Shown here piece after piece: positions 689-59,333 of a stretch of DNA of 64,000 nt. The notes under the pieces are model-generated. The model was not told the DNA's origin. It searched no databases and saw nothing but the letters and a program-made list of their open reading frames with translations. The stretch is from Lachnospiraceae bacterium. Its GTDB lineage: Bacteria > Bacillota > Clostridia > Lachnospirales > Lachnospiraceae. How positions within the stretch are numbered: position 1 is the stretch's first letter; each line of letters starts with the position of its first letter. The position numbers and the translations under genes were made by a program. The stretch lies in the NCBI GenBank assembly GCA_017936885.1, contig JAGBEO010000001.1, positions 220,358-284,357 on the forward strand, read 5' to 3'.

Positions 689-1231
689 TTATTTCTTACC
701 AGTCTTACCAACTTTACGTCTAATTGTCTCATCAGCATACTTAATACCTTTACCCTTATAAGGCTCCGGTCTTCTCTTGTCTCTGATCTCAGCCGCAAAT
801 TGACCAACTTTTTCTTTATCAATACCTTTAACGATGATGATATTCTGTCCGTCCATAACAGTCTCGATACCCTCAGGATCTGTCATCTCTACCGGATGGG
901 AATAACCTAAGTTCAGAGTTAAAGTCTTACCGGACTTAGATGCTCTGTAACCTACACCGTTTACTTCCAATTTCTTTTCAAAGCCTTCTGTTACACCGAC
1001 TACCATGTTGTGGATCAGTGTTCTAGTAAGACCGTGGAAGGATTTCATTTTCTTTAAGTCGTTAGGTCTTGTTACTACAACCTGATCGCCTTCTACTTTG
1101 ATATCCATCTCTGCAGGAAGCACTCTCTCAAGTGTTCCCTTAGGACCTTTTACAGTCACTTTATTATTTTCTGCAACTTCTACAGTTACGCCTGCAGGAA
1201 TTGCGATTGGCATTCTTCCTATACGTGACAT
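689..1231 (-). CDS. rplF: 50S ribosomal protein L6
   Basis: A 180-residue L6 of normal length, located near the factor-binding site of the large subunit. It opens [17 protein letters not shown], contains the hallmark KGPKGTLER and ends in [16 protein letters not shown] followed by a lysine-rich tail. AGGAGGT lies 7 bp before the ATG. The 167 bp gap on its 5' side, towards rpsH, is large for this operon and holds one of the three structured repeats described separately. Confidence 0.98.
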
Positions 1232-1310
1232 GCCCGTACCTCCTATATTATTTGTAAAATCAATAGTTTCTGAATTGATTGCAGTGATATCTCAACCGAC
1301 ATCACCCGCG

Positions 1311-1396
1311 GGAAGAATGGCTTTAGACATTCTTCCGGACGAAACTTAGCATTTCTTAGTCAGCGTACTTTGCTGACTTAGAAATCCTTTTCGTCC
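1311..1396 (-). repeat. Two-hairpin RNA repeat, copy 1 (rpsH-rplF gap)
   Basis: Read on the minus strand, the element starts 2 bp after the rpsH stop codon. Hairpin I has an outer stem GGACGAAA/TTTCGTCC (1389-1396 with 1337-1344) and an inner stem around AGTCAGC/GCTGACT with loop AAAGTAC. Hairpin II is GGAAGAAT/ATTCTTCC (1329-1336 with 1311-1318). The same architecture recurs at 1894-1977 and 3473-3554, with paired base changes that keep the stems. It lies upstream of rplF. I do not recognise a named RNA family; a processing, stability or regulatory role is inference. Confidence 0.85.
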
Positions 1397-1398
1397 TT

Positions 1399-1800
1399 TT
1401 ACCATACAAAGGCTAACACTTCGCCGCCAACCTGAAGTTCTCTTGCCTTCTTATCTGTTACAACACCCTGGTTTGTAGAAATAATTGCAACACCAAGACC
1501 ACCAAGTACTCTCGGTAAATCTTCTTTGCCGGCATATACACGAAGACCCGGTTTGGAAATTCTCTTGATACCGGAAATGATCTTGTCATTCTTATCCTCG
1601 CCATATTTCAATGTAATATGGATTGTCTTGAAATTACCGTCTTCGATCACATCGAATTTCTTAATATAACCTTCATCTAAAAGGATCTGTGCGATAGCTA
1701 ATTTCATTTTAGATGATGGAACATCAACTGTATCATGTTTTGCAGTATTTGCATTACGGATTCTTGTAAGCATATCTGCGATTGGATCGCTCATTGTCAT
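1399..1800 (-). CDS. rpsH: 30S ribosomal protein S8
   Basis: A 133-residue S8 that binds helix 21 of 16S rRNA. It begins [18 protein letters not shown], carries [13 protein letters not shown] and ends with [15 protein letters not shown] and GGEVLAFVW, the conserved C-terminal S8 block. AAGGAGG stands 8 bp before the first ATG; a second ATG two codons in is possible. In gammaproteobacteria S8 is the autogenous repressor of the spc operon. Here both flanking gaps contain a copy of the structured repeat, so S8 is an obvious candidate ligand, but that is inference. Confidence 0.98.
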
Positions 1801-1893
1801 TTGAATTGCCTCCTTCTATAATAATAATGTGTTTCCGCACTCTGGAATAATGGCCTCAGGCATTCTTCAAAAATATCCTTGATACCACCAACG

Positions 1894-1977
1894 GGAAGAA
1901 TCGCCTGCGATTCTTCCGGCTGAAACTTAGTATTTCTTAGGCGGCGTACTTTGACGCCTTAGAAATTCTTTTCAGCC
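1894..1977 (-). repeat. Two-hairpin RNA repeat, copy 2 (rpsZ-rpsH gap)
   Basis: On the minus strand the element starts 2 bp after the rpsZ stop. The outer stem is GGCTGAAA/TTTCAGCC (1970-1977 with 1918-1925), and the inner stem includes AGGCG/CGCCT with loop region AAAGTAC. Hairpin II is the long perfect stem GGAAGAATCGC/GCGATTCTTCC (1907-1917 with 1894-1904). Compared with copy 1, both strands of the outer and inner stems change together. A weaker GAAGAATGCC-type hairpin remnant lies further downstream at about 1842-1868, before the rpsH ribosome binding site. Confidence 0.85.
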
Positions 1978-1979
1978 TT

Positions 1980-2165
1980 TTACCAACTAGCTTTCTTAAC
2001 GCCAGGGATCTGACCTTTATATGCTAACTCACGGAAGCAAATTCTGCAAATTCCGTATTTTCTTAAATAAGCATGTGGACGACCACAAATTTTGCAACGA
2101 TTATACTCTCTTGTAGAGAATTTAGGTTTGCGCTGCTGTTTAATCTTCATTGCTGTCTTAGCCAT
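1980..2165 (-). CDS. rpsZ: 30S ribosomal protein S14, zinc-binding type Z
   Basis: A 61-residue S14 of the short zinc-containing (C+) type. Two CxxC pairs are visible, in [15 protein letters not shown] and [11 protein letters not shown], as expected for one structural zinc. It is a late-assembling head protein of the 30S subunit. AAGGAGG precedes the ATG by 8 bp. Zinc-free paralogues in other Firmicutes replace this form under zinc limitation; none is visible here. It lies between rplE and rpsH in standard order. Confidence 0.97.
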
Positions 2166-2179
2166 GAATTTACCTCCTT

Positions 2180-2719
2180 CTATTTAGCGAATGGCATGTT
2201 AAATAATCTTAACAACTCACGAGCTTCTTCGTCCGTTTTAGCAGTAGTAACGAAGATGATATCCATACCTCTTACTTTATCTACCTTATCGTACTCGATC
2301 TCAGGGAAGATAATCTGCTCTTTAATACCCAGTGCATAGTTACCTCTGCCGTCGAATGCGTTAGGATTAACACCTCTAAAGTCACGTACACGAGGAAGTG
2401 CAAGGTTTACAAGACGATCAAGGAACTCATACATTTTTTCGCCACGAAGAGTTGTCTTACAGCCGATTGCCTGACCTTCTCTTAACTTGAAGTTTGCGAT
2501 AGAATTCTTTGCCTTTGTAAGCACTGCCTTCTGGCCTGTGATTGTTTCCATATCACTTACAGCTGTTTCCAAAACCTTTGCATTTTCTTTTGCTTCACCA
2601 ACGCCCATGTTGATTACGATTTTGTCAAGCTTCGGAACTTCCATAATATTTTTATATCCAAACTTTTTGATCATAGCGTCTACGATCTCGTCCTTATACA
2701 TATCTTTCAGTCTACTCAA
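2180..2719 (-). CDS. rplE: 50S ribosomal protein L5
   Basis: A 179-residue L5, the 5S rRNA-binding protein of the central protuberance. It begins [13 protein letters not shown] and carries [35 protein letters not shown] and the [19 protein letters not shown] block. The initiation codon is TTG at 2717-2719, with AAGGAGG 8 bp upstream; the next in-frame ATG (MYKDEI) has no ribosome binding site and would remove conserved residues. The gene lies 25 bp after rplX. Confidence 0.97.
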
Positions 2720-2744
2720 CGTTTTAGACCTCCTTTCTTACGAA

Positions 2745-3056
2745 TTAATCGATGATGTCACCTGTGGATTTTGCAAAACGAACCTTCTTGTCATTCTCGA
2801 ACTTGAAGCCGATTCTGGTAGGTTTGCCCTTGTGAACATACATAACGTTGGAAGCGTCGATTGCTGCTTCCTTCTGAACAATACCACCGTTCTGGTTAGC
2901 TGCTGAAGGCTTCTCATGCTTTGTAATCATGTTGATCCCTTCTACTACAACTTTATTGTTCTTTCTATCTACGGAAATAACTTTGCCTTCTTTGTCTTTA
3001 TCTTTACCGGCGATAACCTTTACAGTATCACCTTTCTTAATCTTAAATGTTGACAT
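2745..3056 (-). CDS. rplX: 50S ribosomal protein L24
   Basis: A 103-residue L24, an assembly initiator of the 50S subunit near the tunnel exit. The N-terminal KOW motif reads [20 protein letters not shown], followed by [16 protein letters not shown] and a C-terminal [25 protein letters not shown] is 7 bp before the ATG. It is 11 bp after rplN, consistent with translational coupling. Confidence 0.97.
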
Positions 3057-3067
3057 CCCGGCACCTC

Positions 3068-3436
3068 CTATAATACTTCCGGAGCCAGTGAAACAATTTT
3101 CATAAACTGTTTATCACGAAGCTCTCTTGCTACTGGTCCAAAAATACGGGTTCCTCTCGGAGTCTTGTCATCTTTGATGATAACAGCAGCATTTTCGTCA
3201 AATTTGATATAAGAACCGTCTTTACGACGAGCACCTTTAACACTACGAACAACTACGGCTTTCACAACATCGCCTTTTTTTACAACGCCGCCTGGTGTTG
3301 CATCTTTGACCGTAGCAACAATCACATCACCAATACGTGCATATCTTCTTGTAGATCCGCCCATTACCCTGATGCAAAGAAGCTCTTTCGCACCGGTATT
3401 ATCAGCGACCTTAAGTCTGCTTTCCTGTTGAATCAT
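3068..3436 (-). CDS. rplN: 50S ribosomal protein L14
   Basis: A 122-residue L14 of exact family length, part of an inter-subunit bridge. It begins [19 protein letters not shown], with [26 protein letters not shown] and [22 protein letters not shown] precedes the ATG. The gap of about 120 bp on its 5' side towards rpsQ is occupied by the third structured repeat. Confidence 0.98.
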
Positions 3437-3472
3437 GCTAATTTTTCTCCTTATCTTAATATTATCAAGCTG

Positions 3473-3554
3473 GGAAGAATGCTCGCATTCTTCCGACTGA
3501 AACTTAGATTTTCTTAGATGCCGTTCTTTGGCATCTTAGTAAATCTTTTCAGTC
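3473..3554 (-). repeat. Two-hairpin RNA repeat, copy 3 (rpsQ-rplN gap)
   Basis: This minus-strand copy starts 1 bp after the rpsQ stop codon. Outer stem GACTGAAA/TTTCAGTC (3547-3554 with 3495-3502); inner stem with AGATGCC/GGCATCT and loop AAAGAAC; second hairpin GGAAGAATGC/GCATTCTTCC (3485-3494 with 3473-3482). The stem sequences differ from copies 1 and 2 on both arms, while the unpaired AAACTTAG-type linker (plus-strand reading) and the loop stay conserved. It ends about 35 bp before the rplN start. Confidence 0.85.
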
Positions 3555-3555
3555 T

Positions 3556-3810
3556 CTACTTAGCTCTCTCAACGATTTCAACAAGTCTCCATCTCTTATC
3601 CTTGGATAACGGTCTTGTCTCCATCACCTTAACTGTATCACCGATGTTACATTCGTTGTTCTCATCGTGTGCTTTCAATTTATAGGTTCTCTTTACAATC
3701 TTGTTGTAAAGCGGATGTTTTACATGGTCTTCAATTGCAACAACAATTGTTTTGTCCATCTTATTACTGGTAACTTTACCAGTACGGGTTTTTCTCAGAT
3801 TTCTTTCCAC
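3556..3810 (-). CDS. rpsQ: 30S ribosomal protein S17
   Basis: An 84-residue S17, a primary 16S rRNA binder. It begins [20 protein letters not shown] and carries [19 protein letters not shown] and the conserved end [18 protein letters not shown]. The start codon is GTG at 3808-3810, with AAGGAGAG 6-7 bp upstream; there is no better ATG. It lies 33 bp after rpmC. Confidence 0.97.
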
Positions 3811-8792: not shown

Positions 8793-9040
8793 AAAAAAAG
8801 TCGCCTCCTTTTCGCACTTTTAAGTTCTAAGTACGACAAGCGGTGACTGTACACTCTCCCGTGTGTGTCCTAAGTATTCACGTTTCGGATCACTAACCAC
8901 GTTGTTTCTGGCATATGCCAGACATTATTGCTTGTACAGTGACTTGTCGTCAGTTTCCTAACTTGACATTCGCTCCACGGAAAACCTGCCACATTGGGCA
9001 GCAACCTCACGCTTCATCGCTATCATGCCACAGCAATGAT
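8793..9040 (-). promoter_or_regulatory. Structured 5' leader of the S10 operon
   Basis: About 240 nt lie between the predicted transcription start (around 9035) and rpsJ. A long-range stem is visible: 8833-8852 (ACGACAAGCGGTGACTGTAC) pairs with 8934-8950, with a small bulge. It encloses other helices, including the perfect palindromic hairpin TCTGGCATATGCCAGA at 8907-8922. No start codon with a ribosome binding site is seen in it. A role in L4-type feedback is inference; the Escherichia coli S10 leader is not recognisable here. Confidence 0.6.
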
Positions 9041-35097: not shown

Positions 35098-35169
35098 ACT
35101 CCCTATAAAATCAGATGTATCAATCGGTACGACTAAGCCCTCGTAATCTGAAGGTTCATAACCTTCTGT

Positions 35170-35350
35170 ACCACAGCTCTGGCAGGTCTCCTGGCTTAAG
35201 GCTAAAACGCAGACAAGCCTTCCCAACTTTCGTCAGTGACATATATGCCTGCTCACCTATTACAGTGACGAGATCGTGCAGGATTTCCACCTGCTTCCCT
35301 ATTATGCCATGCGCAGCATACCTTCGCTTCCATGGTCACCAGACTGTCTA
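35170..35350 (-). promoter_or_regulatory. Cobalamin riboswitch
   Basis: The minus strand carries the complete adenosylcobalamin aptamer pattern. The B12 box AAGCCAGGAGACCTGCC is at 35181-35197, preceded by the GGGAAGCAGGTGGAAATCC core, the GATCTCGTCACTGTAA segment and GTGAGCAGGC. It lies upstream of cobI, with an intrinsic terminator between. It controls the cobI-hemA-sirC-hemC-cobAhemD-hemB-hemL operon by the order and spacing seen. Confidence 0.95.
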
Positions 35351-35369
35351 TTAAATTTCCGTCTTATTT

Positions 35370-42320: not shown

Positions 42321-42590
42321 ATTTGCCCCTTTCTCGACAATTTTAGTTTCTATTATTATTAAAGAATAAAATTGTCAAAAAATAAGGTGATATAGAAAAA
42401 TAGTTTTTAGTTTATGCTATTGTACTAAAATTTCAATCAATCTTTTGCTTTCCATACGCTTCAACACTTCACTACATTTTTGTCGTGTCCCATTCCAAAA
42501 GAACCGTCAAGCAAAGGAAATCACGAGTGGACTCCATATTTTTGTAGTCGTTTTGAAGTTACTTTAGTTCGTTAAAGTGTTTTTCTATGT

Positions 42591-42623
42591 AAAAAGGCTT
42601 CCAAGGAAAACCTTGGAAGCCTT
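42591..42623 (-). terminator. tuf-type intrinsic terminator (left copy)
   Basis: AAGGCTTCCAAGG/CCTTGGAAGCCTT is a perfect 13-bp stem (42594-42606 with 42611-42623), followed on the minus strand by TTTTT. It stands 23 bp after the tuf remnant stop. The second copy at 59096-59128 has a different stem sequence with the same position. Confidence 0.85.
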
Positions 42624-42645
42624 GAATTTACTGTCATTCTATTAA

Positions 42646-42702
42646 TTACTCGATGATTGTAGCAACCCTACCAGAACCTACAGTACGTCAACCTTCACGG
42701 AT
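42646..42702 (-). pseudogene. tuf (EF-Tu) 3'-end remnant, decayed copy
   Basis: The minus strand encodes IREG, a TGA stop, then RTVGSGRVATIIE and TAA. This is the C-terminus of elongation factor Tu with a stop where Gly belongs. Upstream sequence is unrelated to tuf. Only the last 18 codons are present, which is what an integrase acting at the 3' end of tuf leaves behind. Confidence 0.85.
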
Positions 42703-42888
42703 TAGGTTGAGAGAACCTTGCGTGACAGATGGCATGTTTTCGGGGTTTTCTGTTATCGTATTTTCGATAAATATTGATTTTCTCTGTAATTTCAAATTTT
42801 TTGTAGCTATTTTGTAGCCACTCTAAATTATCCCACTCCGATAATGCATTTATTGTTCTCTGTAAATACTGCATCAATTTGATACAGC

Positions 42889-59036: not shown

Positions 59037-59095
59037 AAATAAAATATCGTAGCCAATTTGTAGCCACTTTAGTCCTCTAAAGTGGCTTTTCATGT

Positions 59096-59128
59096 AAAAA
59101 GGCTTTCGGAGAAATCCCCGAAAGCCTT
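59096..59128 (-). terminator. tuf-type intrinsic terminator (right copy)
   Basis: AAGGCTTTCGG/CCGAAAGCCTT (59099-59109 with 59118-59128), followed by TTTTT on the minus strand. The plus-strand Ymh gene ends 60 bp before it, so it may also stop that transcript. Confidence 0.85.
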
Positions 59129-59153
59129 GATTTTACTGAATAAATTATAATTA

Positions 59154-59214
59154 CTCAATGATAGTAGCAACCCTACCGGATCCAACTGTTCTACCACCTT
59201 CACGGTTCAAGCCT
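59154..59214 (-). pseudogene. tuf (EF-Tu) 3'-end remnant, intact reading frame
   Basis: The minus strand encodes GLNREGGRTVGSGRVATIIE and a TAA stop, the uninterrupted EF-Tu C-terminus. Upstream of it the sequence is AT-rich and unrelated to tuf. Only about 19 codons are present, so this is an attachment-site copy rather than a gene. Confidence 0.88.
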
Positions 59215-59333
59215 TTGATTTTATATCATATATTGGCTATTTTTAACTCTAAAATCATCTTTTTTCATAGCAAAATATTATTATTTATATGCCACTTCAA
59301 ATTTTTTGTTACCAAATTGTTACCACGGACTCC

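Follow-up and report, generated by a model that had tools for sequence, protein, structure and literature searches.

Three double-hairpin elements in the S10/spc operon

Three copies of a double-hairpin element lie on the minus strand of the window (the whole stretch of 64,000 nucleotides analyzed here), each starting 1 or 2 nt after the stop codon of a ribosomal protein gene. Copy 1 (1311-1396) starts 2 nt after the TAA stop codon of rpsH (S8; 1399-1401) and is composed of a 60-nt core hairpin (1337-1396) and a second hairpin, GGAAGAATG..CATTCTTCC (1311-1336); the core contains segments of 8, 9, and 7 bp, an A.A mismatch between the latter two, the loop AAAGTAC, and the 3-nt bulge AAG. Copy 2 (1894-1977; core 1918-1977, second hairpin 1894-1917) starts 2 nt after the TAA of rpsZ (S14 type Z; 1980-1982), and copy 3 (3473-3554; core 3495-3554, second hairpin 3473-3494) starts 1 nt after the TAG of rpsQ (S17; 3556-3558). 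The identities of the three genes were assigned by NCBIfam, and the coordinates, the stems, and the positions 1-2 nt after the three stop codons are all as described in the first-pass annotation.

Each copy is predicted to fold into the core hairpin and an adjoining GGAAGAAT...ATTCTTCC hairpin, for which GGAAGAA...TTCTTCC is the usual sequence in the source genome. The folding energies of copies 1, 2, and 3 are -41.5, -39.4, and -38.3 kcal/mol (z values of -9.64, -7.42, and -8.59), and for each copy none of 200 shuffles is as stable as the real sequence. The opposite strand of the three copies folds equally well, with z values of -6.3 to -10.1 (sense strand, -7.4 to -9.6).

No Rfam family overlaps the three copies, even at E values up to 5, which bears out the earlier remark that no named family matches them. 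The S10-Clostridia ribosomal leader (RF03136) is found at 8944-9025 of the window on the minus strand (95.9 bits). Both are structured RNAs of the same operon, but RF03136 is an operon leader with a conserved sequence that includes G.U pairs and normally occurs once per genome, unlike the element, which is dispersed. A cobalamin riboswitch (RF00174) lies at 35164-35358 on the minus strand (96.5 bits), and two diverged copies of one stretch, at 42544-42821 and 59049-59326, form direct repeats 16505 nt apart and may be end portions of a duplicated gene.

Strong hairpins beside stop codons might suggest transcription terminators or attenuators between the cistrons. However, none of the four terminator-like sites detected in 1200-3700 overlaps any copy of the element, the second hairpin is not followed by a T run in the operon copies or in the flanked copies, and essential genes lie downstream in the same operon. 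This explanation is very improbable, and a terminator was rejected on the missing T run.

Distribution in the genome and in Lachnospiraceae

The search of related genomes with a covariance model that the first-pass annotation had suggested was run with a model (R1) built from 15 source-genome copies; all R1 copy numbers are lower bounds, as the scoring of candidates was capped and strict filters were applied. In the source genome, at least 54 matches are obtained at E values up to 1, the weak ones of which include antisense shadows, and at least 42, a few of them partial, at E values up to 1e-4, with loci taken from the genome. At E values up to 0.1, R1 matches occur in 34 of the 36 other genomes of the genus sampled and in none of 24 genomes from other families of the order, and at E values up to 0.001 they occur in 26 of the 298 sampled genera of the family, the source genus included. 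Among the 80 best S8 loci, which are titled contigs, many of them from uncultured organisms, 24 matches (E up to 0.1) are present in 13 loci, all on the sense strand of the operon; the operon stretch of Parablautia muri, a culturable species, contains one of these matches.

The element is dispersed genome-wide and is not specific to the ribosomal operon in which the first-pass annotation had placed it: 36 of the 42 source-genome matches lie outside the ribosomal cluster, behind unrelated genes, and six lie inside (locus L078). Many species have several copies in their S10-spc-alpha cluster, which could point to an operon-specific binding site for S8 or another ribosomal protein that sets the stoichiometry between cistrons. 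Nevertheless, the 36 matches outside the cluster, the lack of a copy at any given junction in most species, and the absence of an Rfam leader match at the copies leave this explanation scarcely tenable. The proposal of S8 as the binding partner is not supported, with copies genome-wide behind genes such as secA, dnaN, polA, uvrB, and purB, and an S8 or other operon-specific site was rejected on the same ground.

Copies are anchored at translation stop codons

In 26 of the 30 best of the 42 source-genome matches, an ORF of 60 codons or more on the same strand terminates between -6 and +30 nt from the element start, compared with 2 of 30 mirrored antisense controls and 629 of 6000 random positions (10.5%). 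The same test gives 27 of 31 for other species of the genus (mirrored antisense, 1/31; random, 690/6200 or 11.1%; one antisense shadow was removed from 32 matches) and 23 of 28 loci for other genera (mirrored antisense, 4/28; random, 521/5600 or 9.3%; two partial matches were removed from 30 loci). The copies are anchored at translation stop codons, in sense orientation to the upstream gene. A mobile short repeat at random genomic positions had been named as the finding that would speak against a structured operon element; the genome-wide dispersal agrees with such a repeat, but the placement is not random.

Most often, the stop codon ends 2 nt before the element or takes the TA|G form; a stop codon at element positions 6-8 is also among the commonest offsets in the other species of this genus. 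As named by NCBIfam on C-terminal fragments, for which 9 of 10 score under the whole-protein cut-off, the genes upstream of source-genome copies include those of SecA, a SpoVD-like PBP, DnaN, PolA, UvrB, and PurB, as well as DnaK and ThrS, at which the element matches are weak; CarA and TsaD are found upstream of copies in other species. The stop codon is located inside the stem in the SpoVD-like, CarA, and TsaD copies. In the SpoVD-like PBP genes, it forms the sixth to eighth bases of the element, within the outer stem, and is TAA or TGA depending on the species, with the opposite arm altered to match.

Ribosomal operons of related species

Across the ribosomal operons of 44 congeneric species, some of these operons being incomplete, 95 matches are assigned to junctions and one further match is unassigned. 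The upstream genes are those of L23 (11 matches), L2 (10), S17 (15), S14 (16), S8 (22), S5 (7), S11 (9), S4 (2), and SecY, Adk, and IF1 (1 each), and no match follows any of the remaining ribosomal-operon genes tested in these species. All but one of the 95 matches are in sense orientation, and the exception overlaps a sense match. Seventy-seven begin -1 to +3 nt from the stop codon, and the remaining 18 are located 4-170 nt downstream. Counted by junction and species, one begins within -1 to +3 nt in 77 of the 84 cases with any match, and a count of one match per case leaves 11 over.

This precision, together with the stop codons located within the stem, raises the possibility that the target of the structure is the terminating ribosome, through readthrough, stalling, or rescue, and not RNA decay. 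Stop-proximal REPs of Escherichia coli are said to stall ribosomes (PMC12306157). However, all three stop codons are used at the copies, and the offset ranges from -5 to +27, which makes such a stop-codon reader unlikely.

The junctions with a match are longer than those without one, with medians of 161 versus 33 nt for S14-S8, 188 versus 40.5 nt for S8-L6, and 125 versus 25 nt for S17-L14. In relatives without the element (loci L095, L097, L099, and L106), other repeat-like structured stretches fill the S8-L6 junction. The presence of the element is patchy, with matches in 7-16 of 34-42 species at each of the seven commonest junctions and in 13 of the 80 S8 loci, and no single copy can therefore be indispensable.

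Copies at the same site in different species show a mean similarity of 0.65, compared with 0.542 for copies that differ in both site and species. The same-site similarity is reached in none of 500 shuffles, whereas the similarity of copies within the same species is 0.561, which is reached by 147 of 500 shuffles. Because the ribosomal copies are closer to same-site copies elsewhere than to copies at other sites of their own genome, most of them appear to be old and inherited, and losses to have been numerous. Were the element spurious, copies would have been expected to be absent from related genomes; instead, related species carry them at the same junctions. A search for empty versus filled sites yielded no clean gain; the best pair (L209/L210) looks like a loss that left a remnant in L209, and fragments remain where copies appear to have been lost.

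Geometry of the fold and covariation

The geometry of the 60-nt core is fixed (8 bp, 9 bp, the A.A mismatch, 7 bp, a 7-nt loop, and a 3-nt 3' bulge). Forty of 42 distinct same-site cores have A.A at the mismatch; 39 carry one of the bulges AAG, ATG, and ATA, and 21 carry one of the loops AAAGAAC, AAAGTAC, and AAAGGAC. A scan of all loci yields 88 distinct cores with a 3-nt bulge, a set that overlaps the 42 cores; A.A is present in 84, of which only the 3' A counts as a result since the scan demanded CTA on the 5' side. In seven cores of the scan, the bulge is either absent or 2 nt long.

In the 15 source-genome copies, 96.4% of cells pair and 108 cells are changed on both sides, and the covariation score of 0.545 exceeds those of shuffles (0.184) and of slid structures (0.082 at most). 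Two further alignments, of 32 and 21 matches that come mainly from other species, were fitted to the covariance model and also show covariation. The earlier view that structure rather than sequence is kept thus holds both in the 15 copies and in the wider alignments.

The paired changes had also been taken as proof that RNA structure is selected, and this does not follow. RNA under selection is expected to favor G.U pairs. Across 4681 cells, obtained from 139 of 218 aligned rows after exclusion of window duplicates, identical rows, and rows with fewer than 30 filled pairs or less than 80% Watson-Crick pairs, 4346 are Watson-Crick, 67 are G.U, 71 are A.C, and 197 are other combinations. A filter symmetric for G.U and A.C gives 28 versus 27 (85 cores), 41 versus 45 (99 cores), and 47 versus 50 (102 cores). 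In cobalamin riboswitches of the genus under the Rfam structure, by comparison, 289 cells from six of eight riboswitch alignments contain 197 Watson-Crick, 39 G.U, 11 A.C, and 42 other combinations. The S10 leader control shows 82 G.U and no A.C among 374 cells, under an RNAalifold structure that is biased against A.C by construction and with few variable positions; under Rfam's structure, none of the five leaders shown contains a non-standard pair.

The two classes are unevenly distributed in the element. G.U exceeds A.C in the outer stem (22:7 in the 139 rows, 13:4 in the strictest symmetric set, and 28:21 in the loosest), and A.C is ahead in the inner stems (19:42 in the 139 rows). One-sided states between same-site copies are Watson-Crick/G.U in 30 instances and Watson-Crick/A.C in eight, counted over 88 non-independent pairs, which would favor a constraint on RNA. 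Overall, G.U is not preferred over A.C, and this disagrees with constraint on the mRNA strand alone. Because G.U is no commoner than A.C and some copies look perfected from a template (see below), covariation alone does not prove selection for mRNA structure; this caution about strong covariation applies whatever the function of the element.

Sequence turnover

The same-site comparison comprises 88 non-independent pairs with at least 70% core identity, in which Watson-Crick double changes (325) outnumber other double changes (36) and one-sided changes (119). The number of changes per site is lowest for the A.A mismatch (0.08), followed by the middle (0.14), the bulge (0.19), the outer stem (0.21), the inner stem (0.26), and the loop (0.27, more exactly 0.266). 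The mismatch is the most constant part of same-site copies, and the loop is no better conserved than the stems. A near-constant mismatch suggests that something may read the fold.

Two copies bear on how the arms remain complementary. L267 lacks exactly the 3-nt bulge that is present in the near-identical L265, for which a plain deletion would also account, and L058 has lost both the bulge and the mismatch, leaving a perfect stem. Template switching can create and repair hairpin stems in a single step, as described in PMC8794818, and at least these two copies look as if they had been perfected in this manner. Hairpin-templated DNA synthesis and selection may each partly keep the arms of old copies complementary. 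At L024:1448-1589 and L130:1702-1845, nested or tandem copies are observed, in which the second core begins inside the outer stem of the first or at its end.

Flanks and a possible mobilizer

The 5' flanks of 61 copies have the consensus T-A-A-N-A, in which only positions 0 (A in 54 of 61) and -2 (A in 52 of 61) stand out, and this flank is also present at some copies without a long ORF. At the consensus level, the 3' flank of the 61 copies does not repeat the 5' flank, as a target-site duplication would. The two ends of the element, GGNNATGA and (on the opposite strand) GGAAGAAT, resemble each other only loosely. Eleven of the 42 source-genome matches and none of 32 from other species begin with GGGAATGAAG, and five of the 32 and none of the 42 begin with AGACATGA.

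Inspection of the 15 aligned and 61 flanked copies reveals no GTAG or CGTC tag at the ends or in the flanks. Terminal inverted repeats tagged with TA, as in ERIC or MITE elements, are likewise absent; T stands at position -1 in 25 of 61 copies, and no TA follows the 3' end. A Y1 transposase (PF01797) is missing from the source genome (93.6% complete) and is present in 24 of 60 genomes of the genus. Among copy-rich genomes, G034, G027, G001, G002, G013, and G016 have none, and G003, G015, G023, and G025 have one or more. A RAYT-driven REP was rejected on the lack of a Y1 transposase in the source genome and its mixed occurrence in relatives. The attC sites of integrons are folded single-stranded sites that follow a cassette gene and go with an integron integrase.

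These features make it possible, at an appreciable but lesser probability, that the element is a selfish or passive DNA repeat without a role in mRNA, which would be mobilized with a TAANA-like directional target, would survive mainly where genes are left unbroken, and would owe its hairpin to the mobilizer or to hairpin-templated DNA synthesis. The T-A-A-N-A flank at copies without a long ORF, the lineage-specific starts, the tandem and nested copies, and the perfected copies L058 and L267 are consistent with this explanation, as are the strand-symmetric mismatch classes compared with 39:11 in the cobalamin riboswitches. However, an inserter with a TAANA target should also hit other intergenic and opposite-strand sites, and only 2 of 30 mirrored antisense positions follow an ORF end. 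Additionally, the ribosomal copies group by site and not by species, perfecting from a template would remove the A.A mismatch and the bulge while A.A is retained in 40 of 42 cores, and the Y1 transposase is missing from the source genome and six copy-rich relatives, though four others have one.

Related repeats and a possible role

A comparison with known repeats reveals likenesses to three families. Efa-1 of Enterococcus faecalis is an intergenic repeat of two adjacent stem-loops, and Efa members lie preferentially near the 3' ends of genes (PMC1590033, PMC2267715). The present element shares the low-GC Gram-positive host, the intergenic location, the two adjacent stem-loops, and the position at gene 3' ends. 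The comparison is one of descriptions; the Efa-1 model has 163 nt and a host of a different order, and the available text on Efa-1 does not mention the stop-codon precision, the A.A mismatch, or the bulge of the present element (PMC1590033, PMC2267715). ERIC/YPAL repeats of enterobacteria are non-coding hairpin repeats that are co-transcribed with their neighbors, and ERIC destabilizes the upstream mRNA in an orientation-dependent manner (PMC2229807). As far as described there, ERIC has terminal inverted repeats with TA termini, whereas the present element lacks TA-tagged ends.

REP/PU sequences are, like the present element, palindromic, dispersed, and near stop codons, some of them within 15 nt downstream (PMC12306157, PMC3733652). 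According to the same excerpts, REPs are 20-40 bp in length and GTAG- or CGTC-tagged, and the GTAG types are tied to Y1 transposases. In E. coli, 446 of 4,072 REPs lie no more than 15 nt from a stop codon according to PMC12306157, which also cites an earlier figure of 260 of 496; this 15-nt window and its definitions differ from those of -6 to +30 nt used here (26/30, 27/31, and 23/28). The element appears to behave most like these mRNA-acting or stop-proximal repeats, without the tags of REPs or TA ends. No paper on this double-hairpin family was found in a literature in which subscription journals are sparsely covered, and the family may stand unnamed in the supplementary motif tables of PMC8040213; a new family, similar to ERIC, Efa-1, and REP, is the best reading.

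The explanation favored here, which is given close to an even chance, is that this stop-anchored repeat acts in sense on the mRNA 3' end of the upstream cistron. Copies between co-directional genes would be transcribed, and once the terminating ribosome departs, the mRNA would fold into a very stable structure at the stop codon or 1-3 nt after it. The main effect would most likely be on the 3' end of the upstream cistron, as a barrier to 3'-5' decay or as a processing point, and a brake on termination may act instead or in addition, on the model of ERIC and stop-proximal REPs. Old copies would persist at their sites. Because the loop is not conserved above the stems and the A.A count in the 88 cores is partly imposed by the filter, this explanation has been given less weight and the passive repeat more.

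A further and rather doubtful proposal is a hairpin code, in which an RNA-binding protein, an RNase, or a termination factor of Lachnospiraceae would read the fixed geometry (8+9+7 bp, the A.A mismatch, and the 3-nt bulge) across a single post-transcriptional regulon that includes SecA, DnaN, PolA, and ribosomal proteins, or a mobilizer would target stop codons; the sequence turnover would be partly template-switched, with covariation restricted to Watson-Crick pairs. If the element does act on mRNA, Lachnospiraceae would possess a repeat-borne marking of the ends of essential cistrons.

Variants of the fold are also present. In L042, L044, L045, and L047 (at least four source-genome copies), the inner hairpin is swapped for another one, with the outer stem and the second hairpin retained, and the copy at L048:1501-1607 carries an extra small hairpin within the bulge region.
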